From the NCBI RefSeq assembly GCF_010667575.1, contig NZ_JAABNT010000003.1, positions 62,001 through 126,000 of the forward strand: a DNA stretch of 64,000 nt, given 5' to 3'. The number at the start of each line of letters is the position of its first letter. Position 1 is the stretch's first letter. This document shows, in pieces, positions 2,953 to 7,602 of this stretch. The stretch is from Sulfitobacter sediminilitoris (GTDB lineage: Bacteria; Pseudomonadota; Alphaproteobacteria; Rhodobacterales; Rhodobacteraceae). Made by a program: the position numbers and the translations under genes. The notes below the pieces were generated by a model. That model saw nothing but the letters and a program-made list of their open reading frames with translations, did no database searches and was not told the origin of the DNA.

Positions 2953-4029
2953 ATGAACCATTTGAAAAAGCTGCATCAAAGGGTTGCCTTTGGTCTTTTC
3001 GTTGCATTGCTGGCTGTGCTTGCCTTTGGCCAAACGGCGCAGGCTCAGTTGAACCCGTTTTCCAGCGGTTGGACCCTGCAACCAGAAATGTCGAACCTGA
3101 CGTTTCAGTCAGTGAAGAAGCAGACGGTCGTTGAATCCAGCAGTTTTGCCACCCTTGAGGGGGAGATCAGCCCGACCGGATCGACCGAAGTGCGGGTCTT
3201 GCTCGACTCTGTCGATACCAAGATTGACCTGCGCAACGTGCGGATGCGCTTTTTGTTTTTCGAAACATTCAAGTTCCCCACTGCCACGATCAGCACCCAG
3301 ATCGACGCGGCCCTGCTGAATGATCTGTCTGATGTGCGCCGCAAAACGGTGCCGGTCACTTACACGATGGACCTGCACGGAGTAAAAAATACCTATGAAG
3401 CAGAGGTTTACGTAACGCTGCTGACGCAAGACATGGTGTCTGTCGCCAGCCGCACGCCAATTTCGGTTGGTGTGGCGGACTTCAACCTGATGGAAGGCTT
3501 GGGCAAACTGCAAGAGGCCGCGAATGTGGACATCATCCCGTCAGCTACCGTGTCCTTCGATTTCATTTTTGCGCGCAACAGCACCACGGCGGCGGCATCA
3601 GCACCAACAGCGACAACAGCACCTGCTTCGGTAGCGCTGGAAGCCGAAGGTAACTTTGACCGTGAAGCCTGCAAAGGGCGTTTCGAAATCCTGTCTCGGA
3701 CCGGCAATATTTACTTTGCCTCTGGCAGTTCGCGGCATGATGCCAAAAGTGAACCTTTGCTGGATAGTCTTGCCAACATCATTTCGCGCTGCGCCAACAT
3801 GGTAATCGAAGTGGGCGGGCATACCGACTCCGTCGGAAGCGATGCCAGCAACCAAAGACTGTCTGACGCACGCGCCAACACTGTACGCCAATATCTGATG
3901 TCCAAGAACCTCAGTCCATCGGTTCTTGTCAGCAAAGGATACGGTGAGAGCAGCCCCATCGCCACAAACGACACGCGTGAGGGGCGATGGAAAAACCGCA
4001 GGATCGAGTTCAAGGTGATAAGCAACTAA
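2953..4029 (+). CDS. Exported YceI-like / OmpA fusion protein
   Basis: A 358-residue protein preceded by a strong AGGAGG site. It begins with a signal peptide (about residues 1-31, ending QTAQA). Residues about 35-205 look like a YceI-type lipocalin domain, with the usual pattern of a small hydrophobic-ligand barrel (conversion of a mild outer sequence into RKTVPVTYTMDLHGVK). A low-complexity Ala/Thr linker follows, and residues about 245-358 form an OmpA-type peptidoglycan-binding domain (GGHTDSVGSDASNQRLSDAR, then GYGESSPIATNDTREGRWKN). It should be periplasmic and attached to the cell wall. The caspase-like gene starts at the very next base, so the two are one transcription unit. Confidence 0.85.
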   Translation: MNHLKKLHQRVAFGLFVALLAVLAFGQTAQAQLNPFSSGWTLQPEMSNLTFQSVKKQTVVESSSFATLEGEISPTGSTEVRVLLDSVDTKIDLRNVRMRFLFFETFKFPTATISTQIDAALLNDLSDVRRKTVPVTYTMDLHGVKNTYEAEVYVTLLTQDMVSVASRTPISVGVADFNLMEGLGKLQEAANVDIIPSATVSFDFIFARNSTTAAASAPTATTAPASVALEAEGNFDREACKGRFEILSRTGNIYFASGSSRHDAKSEPLLDSLANIISRCANMVIEVGGHTDSVGSDASNQRLSDARANTVRQYLMSKNLSPSVLVSKGYGESSPIATNDTREGRWKNRRIEFKVISN

Positions 4030-5628
4030 ATGCGACACATGATTTGGAACCAAAAGGCGGCCATTGGCCGCCTCATCCGCTTGATAAGTGCTGTCAGTAT
4101 TGTGATCTTCAGCATGCAAGCCGCATCTGCGCAAGAGATTGAGCCGAGGATCGCGCTGATCATTGGTAATGGCTCTTATGGGGCTGTGACGGCGCTGGAT
4201 AATCCGGTGCCTGATGCCGAGCTGATGGCGCAGACCCTTGAGCAGAAAGGCTTCAAGGTCACGATATTGACCGATGCAAGCCAGATTTCGCTGAACCGTG
4301 CAATCGCCCAGTTTGGCCGCGACCTGCGGGAAGCGGGGCCCAACGCGACGGGCCTGTTCTACTACGCGGGCCATGCGGTGCAGTCCTTTGGCAACAACTA
4401 TCTGCTGCCCGTCGATGCCAGCCTGACCGATGCGGCCGATCTCAGCCTTGTTGCCGTGCCGGCACAGGCGGTGTTGCGTCAGATGTTTTCGGCGAAGAAC
4501 AAGACGAATATCGTCATCCTTGATGCCTGTCGAAACAATCCATTCGAAGCGATCCCCGACCTGAATGACAATGGTCTGGCGGAAATGAAATCTCCGACGG
4601 GAACCTTCCTTGCGTATTCAACGGCGCCCGGTGCCGTGGCGTTGGATGGTCTGGACGGTAACAGCCCGTTCACCAAGGCGCTTGCGCGCGAAATTCCTGC
4701 AGCCGGCGTGCCGATTGAACAGGTTTTCAAAAACGTTCGTGTGAAAGTGATCGAAGAAACGCAAGGCCAGCAGACACCTTGGGATACTTCGTCGCTGACT
4801 GATGATTTCTACTTTGTTGCGCAAGAGGAAAAGACCAAGGAAGAAATCGCGGAGCAGCAGCTTTGGGAATCTGTGAAATTCAGTACTGACCCGGTGCCTG
4901 TCGTTTTGTTCATGCGCGGCTATCCTGACAGCGAGCATATCCCCGAAGCGCGCGCATTGCTTGAGAAAATCATCAATTCTGAACTGGACCAAGGCACTGC
5001 GACAGCAGGCGCTCAGGCACAACAGGAAGCGCCCCCCCTTGAGATTGCCGCGGCGGAGCCAGAACCCGCACCGGCACCTGAACCCGCTCCAGTTGATACA
5101 ACCAAAGAGCAGGAGCGCCTGATCGGCATCGCTCAAAGCTCAGGCACTGCAGGTGATTATCAGGCCTACCTCGACGCCTTTCCCGAAGGGATCTATGCTG
5201 AATTCGCGGTTTTTGAGTTGAAGGTTTTGGCCGAAAAGGCCGAGCGTGCGGCTGCTGCAGCACAGGCCCCAACGGAACAGCAGGAAATCGTTGTGGCCGC
5301 TGCCCCATCGCGTGCTGCTCCTGCCCCTATGGGGACCGAGCTGACTTGGACCATGCCCTTTACCAGCGGTGTGGACCGGCTGATCGGCAAGAGCATCGAA
5401 GAACTGGTAACCCTGTCGCCATTATTTCCGCCCATTGAAGGGTTGCCCGAAGAGTTATGGAAAGAGCAAAGTTGCTCAAATTGCCATCAATGGACCAAGG
5501 AAGCCCTTTGTACGCAGGGGCAAACCTATGTGAATGCAGGGAACAACGATGCAGTCTCAAAGCAGCACCCTTACGGCGGTGGCTTTAAGATGAATGTTCG
5601 CTCTTGGGCCGAGGGGGGCTGCAAATAG
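4030..5628 (+). CDS. Exported caspase-like protein with C-terminal CxxCH motif
   Basis: A 532-residue protein starting directly after the preceding stop. Residues 1-34 look like a signal peptide (ends AASAQ). Residues about 38-275 are a caspase/metacaspase p20-type domain with the catalytic His115 in FYYAGHAVQ and Cys167 in ILDACRNNPF. A Glu/Ala/Pro-rich middle (about 325-440) looks like flexible linkers around a repeat-like helical unit. The last 60 residues contain CSNCH (482-486), the c-type heme attachment signature, plus Cys494 and Cys531 and possible distal ligands His513 or Met521. The caspase assignment is firm; covalent heme is a prediction from motif plus export signal, and a disulfide domain is the alternative. 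Confidence 0.85.
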   Translation: MRHMIWNQKAAIGRLIRLISAVSIVIFSMQAASAQEIEPRIALIIGNGSYGAVTALDNPVPDAELMAQTLEQKGFKVTILTDASQISLNRAIAQFGRDLREAGPNATGLFYYAGHAVQSFGNNYLLPVDASLTDAADLSLVAVPAQAVLRQMFSAKNKTNIVILDACRNNPFEAIPDLNDNGLAEMKSPTGTFLAYSTAPGAVALDGLDGNSPFTKALAREIPAAGVPIEQVFKNVRVKVIEETQGQQTPWDTSSLTDDFYFVAQEEKTKEEIAEQQLWESVKFSTDPVPVVLFMRGYPDSEHIPEARALLEKIINSELDQGTATAGAQAQQEAPPLEIAAAEPEPAPAPEPAPVDTTKEQERLIGIAQSSGTAGDYQAYLDAFPEGIYAEFAVFELKVLAEKAERAAAAAQAPTEQQEIVVAAAPSRAAPAPMGTELTWTMPFTSGVDRLIGKSIEELVTLSPLFPPIEGLPEELWKEQSCSNCHQWTKEALCTQGQTYVNAGNNDAVSKQHPYGGGFKMNVRSWAEGGCK

Positions 5629-6255: not shown

Positions 6256-7602
6256 ATGACCAATATCACGCAGAAGAAAGTCGACAGCCTCAAACCGCCA
6301 AGCAAAGTCTCCATCCTACGGGATGACACGCTGAAAGGCTTTGGCGTGAAGGTGACCCCCAAGGGCCGTATCTCGTTCATTGTCGAAGGTCGGATCAGGG
6401 GCGGAAGGACACGAAGGATCACCCTCGGACAGCATCCAGCTATGACCGTAGCTGACGCCAAAGAGCTTGCACGAGACAAACTACTCCAGATGCAGCGAGG
6501 GGAAGACCCCGTTGAGGTGCGTAAGGCTGTTGAGGCTCGTGAGGAAGCCCTAGGCAAGACGGTGGGGGCAGTGTTCGACAGCTATCTTGCTGCCAGAGAC
6601 CTCAAACCACGTACCGAGCAAGACTACATTAATGCCTTCAACCTCTACTTCTCGGCATGGAGGGAAAAGCCAATCCGCGATGTGACCCGTCAGGATGCAG
6701 AGGAACGCTTTGTCCATATCCGTGACAACGCAGGGCTACCATCGGCTGCAAAGTGTTACCGTATCATGTCCGCTGTATTCGGATTTGCCTTGGCAGATGA
6801 GGTGGATGGAGAGCGTTTGATCACTGAAAACCCGTGGCTGGTCATCAAGCAGAAGAAGTACAGGCGTCAGGTGAAGAGGCGCACGGACTACCTAGAGGAC
6901 GAGCAGATCAAGAGGCTCATTCACTTCTATCACATGGAGAAAGACTGGCCTGAGACACGTAAGCACGGGGTAACAGAGCAGGGGATCAACTTCGTGATGC
7001 TGCTGATGTGCTCGGGGCTTCGTAGGACGGAGGGTCTTCGGCTGGCTTGGGAAGATGTTGACTGGGACAAAGGTTACTTCGTGGTCCATGACACCAAGAA
7101 CGGAACTGATCACCACATACCGCTATCCAAGATGATCAAGTGGGTACTCAAGCGGCAACAGGCCCACCTTCAGGCTATCGGTAAGGATGGATCACCTTGG
7201 GTCTTCCCTGCTCGTAGGGGTGACAATCACATGACAGAACCCAAATCACAGCTTGCGCGTATCATTCGCCATACGGGTATCAAGTTCAGCTTCCATGACC
7301 TGCGTCGAACCTTTGCCACCCATGCAGAATCCAATGGTGCGTCGCTAGACTTGATCAGGAGGGCGCTGAACCACAGGTCGCAGTCTATCACCGAAGGTTA
7401 CATCATCACGCAGATAGATCGCCTTAGACCTGTCTTTGATGCAGTAGCGGACGGATACCACCGGTACTACGACCCTGACTGGGAGCATCAGCGAGATGTT
7501 GACGCCGCAATAGCACAAGAGCCTGACGAGATGCAGAAGCAAAGACTTGCAGAACACGCTGAACAAATAGCTGCATCCAACCTTGAGTGGCTAAAGGGGT
7601 AG
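6256..7602 (+). CDS. P4-type tyrosine integrase
   Basis: A 448-residue site-specific recombinase. Residues about 1-90 form the DUF4102 arm-binding domain (ILRDDTLKGFGVKVTPKGR), residues about 95-190 the core SAM-like domain, and the rest the catalytic domain. Catalytic residues are visible as Arg256 in SGLRRTE, the HxxR box FHDLRRT (His347, Arg350), the late His in LNHRSQSI, and the Tyr382 nucleophile in TEGYI. It should cut and join the tRNA-Thr attachment sites that bound this island. It sits beside the truncated tRNA copy, away from the intact one. The reading frame is intact, so the element may still be mobile. Confidence 0.95.
   Translation: MTNITQKKVDSLKPPSKVSILRDDTLKGFGVKVTPKGRISFIVEGRIRGGRTRRITLGQHPAMTVADAKELARDKLLQMQRGEDPVEVRKAVEAREEALGKTVGAVFDSYLAARDLKPRTEQDYINAFNLYFSAWREKPIRDVTRQDAEERFVHIRDNAGLPSAAKCYRIMSAVFGFALADEVDGERLITENPWLVIKQKKYRRQVKRRTDYLEDEQIKRLIHFYHMEKDWPETRKHGVTEQGINFVMLLMCSGLRRTEGLRLAWEDVDWDKGYFVVHDTKNGTDHHIPLSKMIKWVLKRQQAHLQAIGKDGSPWVFPARRGDNHMTEPKSQLARIIRHTGIKFSFHDLRRTFATHAESNGASLDLIRRALNHRSQSITEGYIITQIDRLRPVFDAVADGYHRYYDPDWEHQRDVDAAIAQEPDEMQKQRLAEHAEQIAASNLEWLKG

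Follow-up and report, generated by a model that had tools for sequence, protein, structure and literature searches.

Most of the solved YceI lipocalins hold isoprenoids or ubiquinone-8, and the haem protein cytochrome b561 is frequently found linked with members of this family or fused to them (PMC9113575). As suggested by the authors of that account, the haem protein would re-reduce the YceI-bound quinone, which would then be oxidised by peroxyl radicals. The BcnA-LcoA system, composed of a YceI lipocalin and a cytochrome b561, resembles the locus described here in that a periplasmic YceI protein is paired with a (here predicted) haem protein, either as a neighbour or as a fusion (PMC9113575). 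In contrast to that system, the candidate haem partner of the present locus is a small c-type tail, the YceI protein is fused to an OmpA domain, and a caspase is often attached.

Surveys of prokaryotic caspases record N-terminal helices, possibly signal peptides, and report a frequent loss of the catalytic His-Cys dyad among the alphaproteobacterial homologues, those of the Rhodobacterales included (PMC6426788, PMC3501461). The main texts of both papers are free of the terms "cytochrome" and "heme", and neither a fusion of a caspase with a haem protein or cytochrome c nor a caspase beside YceI was the subject of any title listed in searches of the open literature. The protein described below shares a caspase domain with a His-Cys dyad with MALT1 and the orthocaspases, and it shares loss of the dyad in part of its family with the pseudo-orthocaspases of alphaproteobacteria. 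Unlike MALT1 and the orthocaspases, it is apparently exported and ends in a tail with CxxCH, and some members of its family have a damaged caspase part or none at all. Like the apparently exported tail, the exported haem c sensor domains of the sCache_heme type (DUF3365) have a conserved CXXCH and occur both alone and fused (PMC12889525), whereas the tail gave no match to that family in a Pfam scan up to E=1, and its partners are different.

Organization of the Locus

The locus lies on the forward strand of a window of 64,000 nucleotides, which is the whole stretch of DNA that was analysed; the order and genus referred to below, Rhodobacterales and Sulfitobacter, were deduced from named relatives. 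Its features are compiled in Table 1. As originally predicted, an intact caspase domain with the dyad His115/Cys167 and a C-terminal CSNCH motif are joined in one protein, which is evident from the open reading frame, the Pfam match, and the positions of the residues. The N-terminus, read by eye, consists of a hydrophobic stretch followed by AASA|QE, and the protein is apparently exported.

Table 1. Positions of the two adjacent genes and of their observed or predicted features within the window.
Feature	Position	Strand	Basis
YceI-OmpA protein, 358 amino acids, partner gene directly upstream	2953..4029	+	Pfam; co-occurrence
YceI lipocalin-like domain, residues 40-181	3070..3495	+	Pfam, E=7.1e-11
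OmpA peptidoglycan-binding domain, residues 254-349	3712..3999	+	Pfam, E=1.1e-20
Caspase-tail protein, open reading frame of 532 amino acids plus stop	4030..5628	+	Open reading frame and translation
Probable Sec signal peptide, residues 1-34	4030..4131	+	Sequence, read by eye
Caspase domain (Peptidase_C14), residues 40-261	4147..4812	+	Pfam; MALT1 paracaspase matched by sequence and by Foldseek
Catalytic His115	4372..4374	+	Sequence
Catalytic Cys167	4528..4530	+	Sequence
Helical segment, residues 270-330	4837..5019	+	AlphaFold2 model
Helical segment, residues 358-412	5101..5265	+	AlphaFold2 model
Conserved tail domain with CxxCH, from about residue 440 to 532	5347..5625	+	Alignment of 81 sequences; AlphaFold2
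CSNCH, residues 482-486, predicted covalent haem c attachment site	5473..5487	+	CxxCH in every tail examined
Cys494, third conserved Cys; may take part in a disulfide	5509..5511	+	Alignment
His513, second conserved His, with a Pro after it; candidate for the distal ligand of the haem	5566..5568	+	Alignment
Cys531, fourth conserved Cys; may pair with Cys494 in a disulfide	5620..5622	+	Alignment

The caspase domain matches the Peptidase_C14 family (PF00656), scoring 125.1 bits where the cut-off is 21.4 (E=4.6e-36). Its nearest solved relatives are the MALT1 paracaspases (E=2.5e-15 by sequence, with agreement from Foldseek), and its His-Cys dyad aligns with that of MALT1. The cut-off of the NCBIfam model caspase_w_EACC1 (NF047832) is missed by the protein (54.4 bits against 140). 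Matches in PADLOC, namely of a caspase model to the caspase and of ZorB models to the OmpA part of the neighbouring protein, were discounted as a sign of a role in defence. Two more caspase homologues are present in the genome of the window (G000:C4:65019 and G000:C2:44485); they match the caspase-tail protein over residues 13-312 and 17-413, respectively, the tail being excluded in either case.

Between the caspase and the tail, the AlphaFold2 model comprises the two helical segments as well as linkers with a pLDDT below 50 at residues 331-334, 336-347, and 415-433. The tail itself is modelled confidently (residues 429-532, pLDDT 88.2, pTM 0.80). Apart from the catalytic Cys167, the only cysteines of the whole protein are the four residues of the tail (Cys482, Cys485, Cys494, and Cys531), which also contains two histidines, His486 and His513.

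Conservation of the C-Terminal Domain

The tail, which spans roughly residues 440-532, constitutes a real domain of its own for which neither Pfam nor NCBIfam has a model; the NCBIfam scan of the tail gave no match. Over 81 aligned tails, 16 columns are invariant, among them the two cysteines and the histidine of CxxCH, the third and the fourth cysteine, and the second histidine with its proline. From a separate alignment of the full-length proteins, one relative, L072, was left out for its length.

Relatives were collected by a scan with the patterns CSNCH[QE]WT and [SA]Px[FY][AP]PIEG[LI], and the best 80 of 101 were kept. Because CSNCH was part of the scan pattern, the presence of CxxCH in all 80 of these is partly circular; 40 of the 80 loci lack the pattern CSNCH[QE]WT, and CxxCH is found in 40 of those 40. 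A search by profile HMM of 390 genomes, evenly drawn from the order, selected its matches without use of the motif. All of its 56 tails contain CxxCH, the third cysteine, the His-Pro pair, and the last cysteine, with HPFDG and HPFNG replacing HPxGG in two of the 56 (L219 and L222). Taken over 127 proteins with 108 distinct tails, CxxCH, the third cysteine, HPxG, and the last cysteine occur in 108 of 108, and the two middle residues of CxxCH vary, 18 different pairs being represented. Reading frames were chosen from the loci by regular expression, which asked for CxxCH in some sets (120 proteins in one of them) and only for CxxC in others, the 56 included; by this choice, no row was lost from either the 120 or the 56. 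A chance occurrence of the motif is ruled out by the 108 distinct tails together with the 56 HMM matches. With the original prediction, homologues that have lost CxxCH or its histidine and kept the other cysteines would speak against haem; such homologues were looked for, and none was found among the 108 distinct tails.

The YceI-OmpA Partner Gene

The constant partner of the tail is the gene located directly upstream, the stop codon of which ends one base before the ATG (4030) of the caspase-tail gene. It encodes a YceI lipocalin-like domain, scoring well above the family cut-off (43.1 bits against 23.7 in Pfam), followed by an OmpA domain. Four genes preceding the caspase-tail gene were scanned in Pfam and were assigned to Usp, TPP_enzyme_N, FMN_dh, and YceI-OmpA. 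The original prediction was centred on the tail and the caspase and did not include this neighbour, which accompanies the tail in all 55 genomes of the order that contain it.

Among the 390 genomes, the tail is found in 55 and YceI-OmpA (E<=1e-40) in 56; both are present in 55 and neither in 334 (Fisher p=1.2e-66, a value that ignores shared ancestry). The two genes lie within 800 bases of each other for 53 of the 56 tail genes; the remaining three are found on another contig (G192), as a second copy (G133:C27), and at a distance of about 1.4 kb (G249). The only genome with YceI-OmpA and no tail, G360 (L178, G360:C33:42000-50000), has an in-frame TAG in the YceI-OmpA gene, and the gene beside this broken copy encodes a caspase with neither dyad nor tail. 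The YceI-OmpA match is in two pieces in G254 and G401. Within the genus, the tail was detected at E<1e-20 in 10 of 36 genomes (G000-G035), and for the 23 genomes G000-G022, YceI-OmpA is present in the same six that possess the tail at this threshold.

Of the loci from named genomes that make up the best 80 of 101 relatives, 76 contain a YceI-OmpA match. Two of the other four end within 170 bases upstream of the tail gene (L096 and L102), one is a second copy (L086), and one is a fusion (L072). Three tail genes have no YceI-OmpA in their vicinity, namely L072, which is an SdrD-like fusion, and two second copies, L086 and G133:C27. In L072 (L072:3226-6300), the tail ends a protein of 1025 amino acids that reads like an SdrD-type surface protein, with no caspase in the protein and no YceI-OmpA in the locus.

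The Caspase as an Optional Part

The 56 tail proteins from the order comprise 40 with an intact dyad, 12 without a caspase, three with a damaged dyad, and one truncated before the histidine. CxxCH is kept in all of them, the caspase-free and dyad-damaged proteins included. In the three damaged proteins, the His/Cys dyad is changed to Q/Y, Q/C, and F/S (L127, L129, and L177, respectively). A tail restricted to caspases is therefore ruled out by the 12 caspase-free proteins; the conserved core is the haem-type tail, and the caspase is optional. Six of the caspase-free proteins (L078, L085, L092, L094, L105, and L106) have N-termini that read as signal peptides, and all six are encoded beside YceI-OmpA. 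Some of the caspase-free proteins keep stretches resembling the helical segments, as read by eye, which suggests that a caspase has been lost. Where the dyad is kept, as it is in 40 of the 56 tail proteins, the caspase is probably active, judging by its residues.

On a tree of YceI-OmpA sequences, caspase presence requires at least four changes, two of which are forced by starred branches, and two rows with a damaged dyad fall in different places. This quick tree leaves 30 of its 85 inner branches open, includes several long rows, and does not distinguish gain from loss; it has no YceI-OmpA rows for L072, L086, L096, L102, and L129, and the broken or cut genes of L073, L102, and L037 were left out of the change counts.

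These distributions bear on the idea that the haem domain responds to a gas or to redox state and thereby turns the caspase attached to it on or off. The two parts reside in one polypeptide in most relatives, the caspase family being matched by 72 of the best 80 of 101 proteins; the prevalence of intact dyads and the low-confidence linkers between caspase and tail would also suit such a switch, and extracytoplasmic sensor domains with haem c are described (PMC12889525). However, the tails that occur without a caspase or with a damaged dyad retain both CxxCH and YceI-OmpA, so that gating of a caspase cannot be the general job of the tail. The coupling of haem redox state to caspase activity envisaged in the original prediction accordingly finds no specific support in the 12 caspase-free and three dyad-damaged proteins and the 55 of 55 genomes with YceI-OmpA. 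As an account of the tail, haem gating is considered rather unlikely, yet it can be compatible, in lineages having both parts, with the reading preferred here, in which the tail and the YceI lipocalin form a redox pair.

Haem, Disulfides, or Zinc

Invariance of CxxCH with variable middle residues is the usual pattern of haem c attachment sites. Since loss of the motif was searched for and not observed among the 108 distinct tails, the tail likely carries a covalent c-type haem, as far as can be judged from sequence. Matches to CcmE and CcmH of the cytochrome c maturation machinery are present in the genome of the window, on one contig. The predicted haem c site thus has the support of motif conservation and of the CcmE and CcmH matches; against it stands that no cytochrome fold was detected. 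Neither the Pfam nor the NCBIfam scan matched the tail to a cytochrome family. Foldseek of the tail against the PDB had no match at E<=0.001; of its five rows, the first and the third are yeast cytochromes c at E values of 5.6 and 6.4, which are not significant, and in VIA-align of the tail model 0 of 14 chains reached Z>=2. For the tail profile, the best PDB sequence, that of a cytochrome c555 trimer, reaches E=0.0018 when three repeats are summed, but each of these gives 80-100 by itself.

The same four cysteines could instead stabilize a binding domain by two disulfides (Cys482-Cys485 and Cys494-Cys531), which would dock on YceI-OmpA or on the cell wall, the histidine after CxxC serving in folding or binding and no haem being present. 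Conservation of all four cysteines, two of them outside CxxCH, in an apparently exported domain and the lack of a cytochrome fold match in Foldseek and VIA-align would fit this reading, as would the described competition between haem attachment and oxidation of CXXCH cysteines (PMC3420020, PMC3601427). It has to be set against this that the histidine of CxxCH is as conserved as its cysteines, in 108 of 108 tails, while the middle residues vary. System I, moreover, is described as recognizing only CXXCH or little beyond, peptides of 12 residues being able to take haem (PMC3601427), so that a motif left unmodified would need explaining. A purely disulfide-bonded tail is therefore judged unlikely. 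What stands of the disulfide alternative raised with the original prediction is a possible Cys494-Cys531 bond, which could sit beside a haem; the pattern of CxxCH itself favours haem.

Binding of zinc through the cysteines and histidines is very improbable. In its favour, Pfam matches the isolated tail to nothing but a zinc-finger family (E=0.053), which is also matched by one of the best 80 of 101 relatives (E=0.0055). The match to the tail, however, is 10 residues long and reaches 13.4 bits where the cut-off is 27, and CxxCH in an exported domain more readily serves haem.

Proposed Function

What the analysis shows directly is how the protein is built, that the motif is conserved, that the two genes are paired, and that the caspase is repeatedly absent or damaged; the proposal favoured here builds on these observations. 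The tail with haem c and the wall-anchored YceI lipocalin would probably constitute a periplasmic redox pair, to which most of the sampled lineages add a probably active caspase; we hold this with somewhat more than even confidence. The caspase-tail protein would be a periplasmic protein in three blocks, in which an orthocaspase is followed by a spacer of helices and, at the C-terminus, by a domain with one c-type haem. Haem would be attached to CxxCH by the Ccm system, the iron site would be completed by His513 or by an exchangeable ligand, and a disulfide could form between Cys494 and Cys531. The OmpA part of the partner would bind peptidoglycan, and its YceI part would hold an isoprenoid or a quinone. 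By analogy with the YceI-cytochrome b561 systems, the haem may exchange electrons with the YceI-bound ligand, or may sense its redox state, within the envelope. The caspase would be an add-on effector, the pair persisting where it is missing. The gene pairing as such shows association; transfer of electrons is what we infer from the analogy.

A narrower version, in which the redox or ligand state of the haem, set via the YceI-bound quinone, unleashes the caspase within one periplasmic protein, is regarded as decidedly unlikely. If true, such a haem-switched caspase would parallel, within a single chain, the axis of cytochrome c and caspases in animals. Mitochondria are related to the alphaproteobacterial class, and the periplasm corresponds to their intermembrane space.

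In this way, a domain with a fully kept haem c motif is defined and its constant partner identified. Should the haem prove real, a small c-type protein would join cytochrome b561 in the theme of YceI plus a haem protein. Testable functions follow for the apparently exported caspase and for the YceI-OmpA protein, and the natural series of tail proteins with an intact dyad, a damaged dyad, or no caspase could be used to examine what a redox module gains from a bacterial caspase.

Distribution of the Pair

The best 80 of 101 loci belong nearly all to Rhodobacteraceae in the wide sense; four are from Roseibium/Labrenzia, and a few are contigs with broad or odd labels. In a class-wide search, the tail was detected in two of 385 genomes, both of the family of the window. 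A search across the phylum yielded 16 of 398 genomes at E<=0.05, of which 11 lie below 1e-29 (four from the family of the window and seven from another alphaproteobacterial family, f174); the five weak matches are taken for chance. The seven f174 genomes, which are assigned to one genus (g414, probably Mesorhizobium by plasmid matches), encode a caspase joined to a CxxCH tail, and just upstream each of the seven shows the partner's OmpA end. For two of these regions that were extended further, the YceI-OmpA match covers both domains (query residues 15-353 and 40-353).

The pair also occurs on plasmids, with 27 plasmid records matching the tail, 17 of them from Leisingera; in one such record (L200, NC_023136.1 40000-58000), it is located near repC and a gene with a ParB domain. 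One contig labelled as a gammaproteobacterial MAG (L058) likewise has the pair, which points to a wrong label or to transfer.

An operon of ExbB, ExbD, ExbD, and DUF4384 was matched in whole or in part in 44 of the best 80 of 101 loci (e.g., L059:6522-9583). The relative of the DUF4384 protein in the genome of the window is encoded on another contig (C4:50600-51979), and for this reason the operon was kept out of the proposed mechanism. Following the caspase-tail gene, the open reading frame at positions 6256-7602 of the window reads as a tyrosine integrase and perhaps marks the edge of an island.
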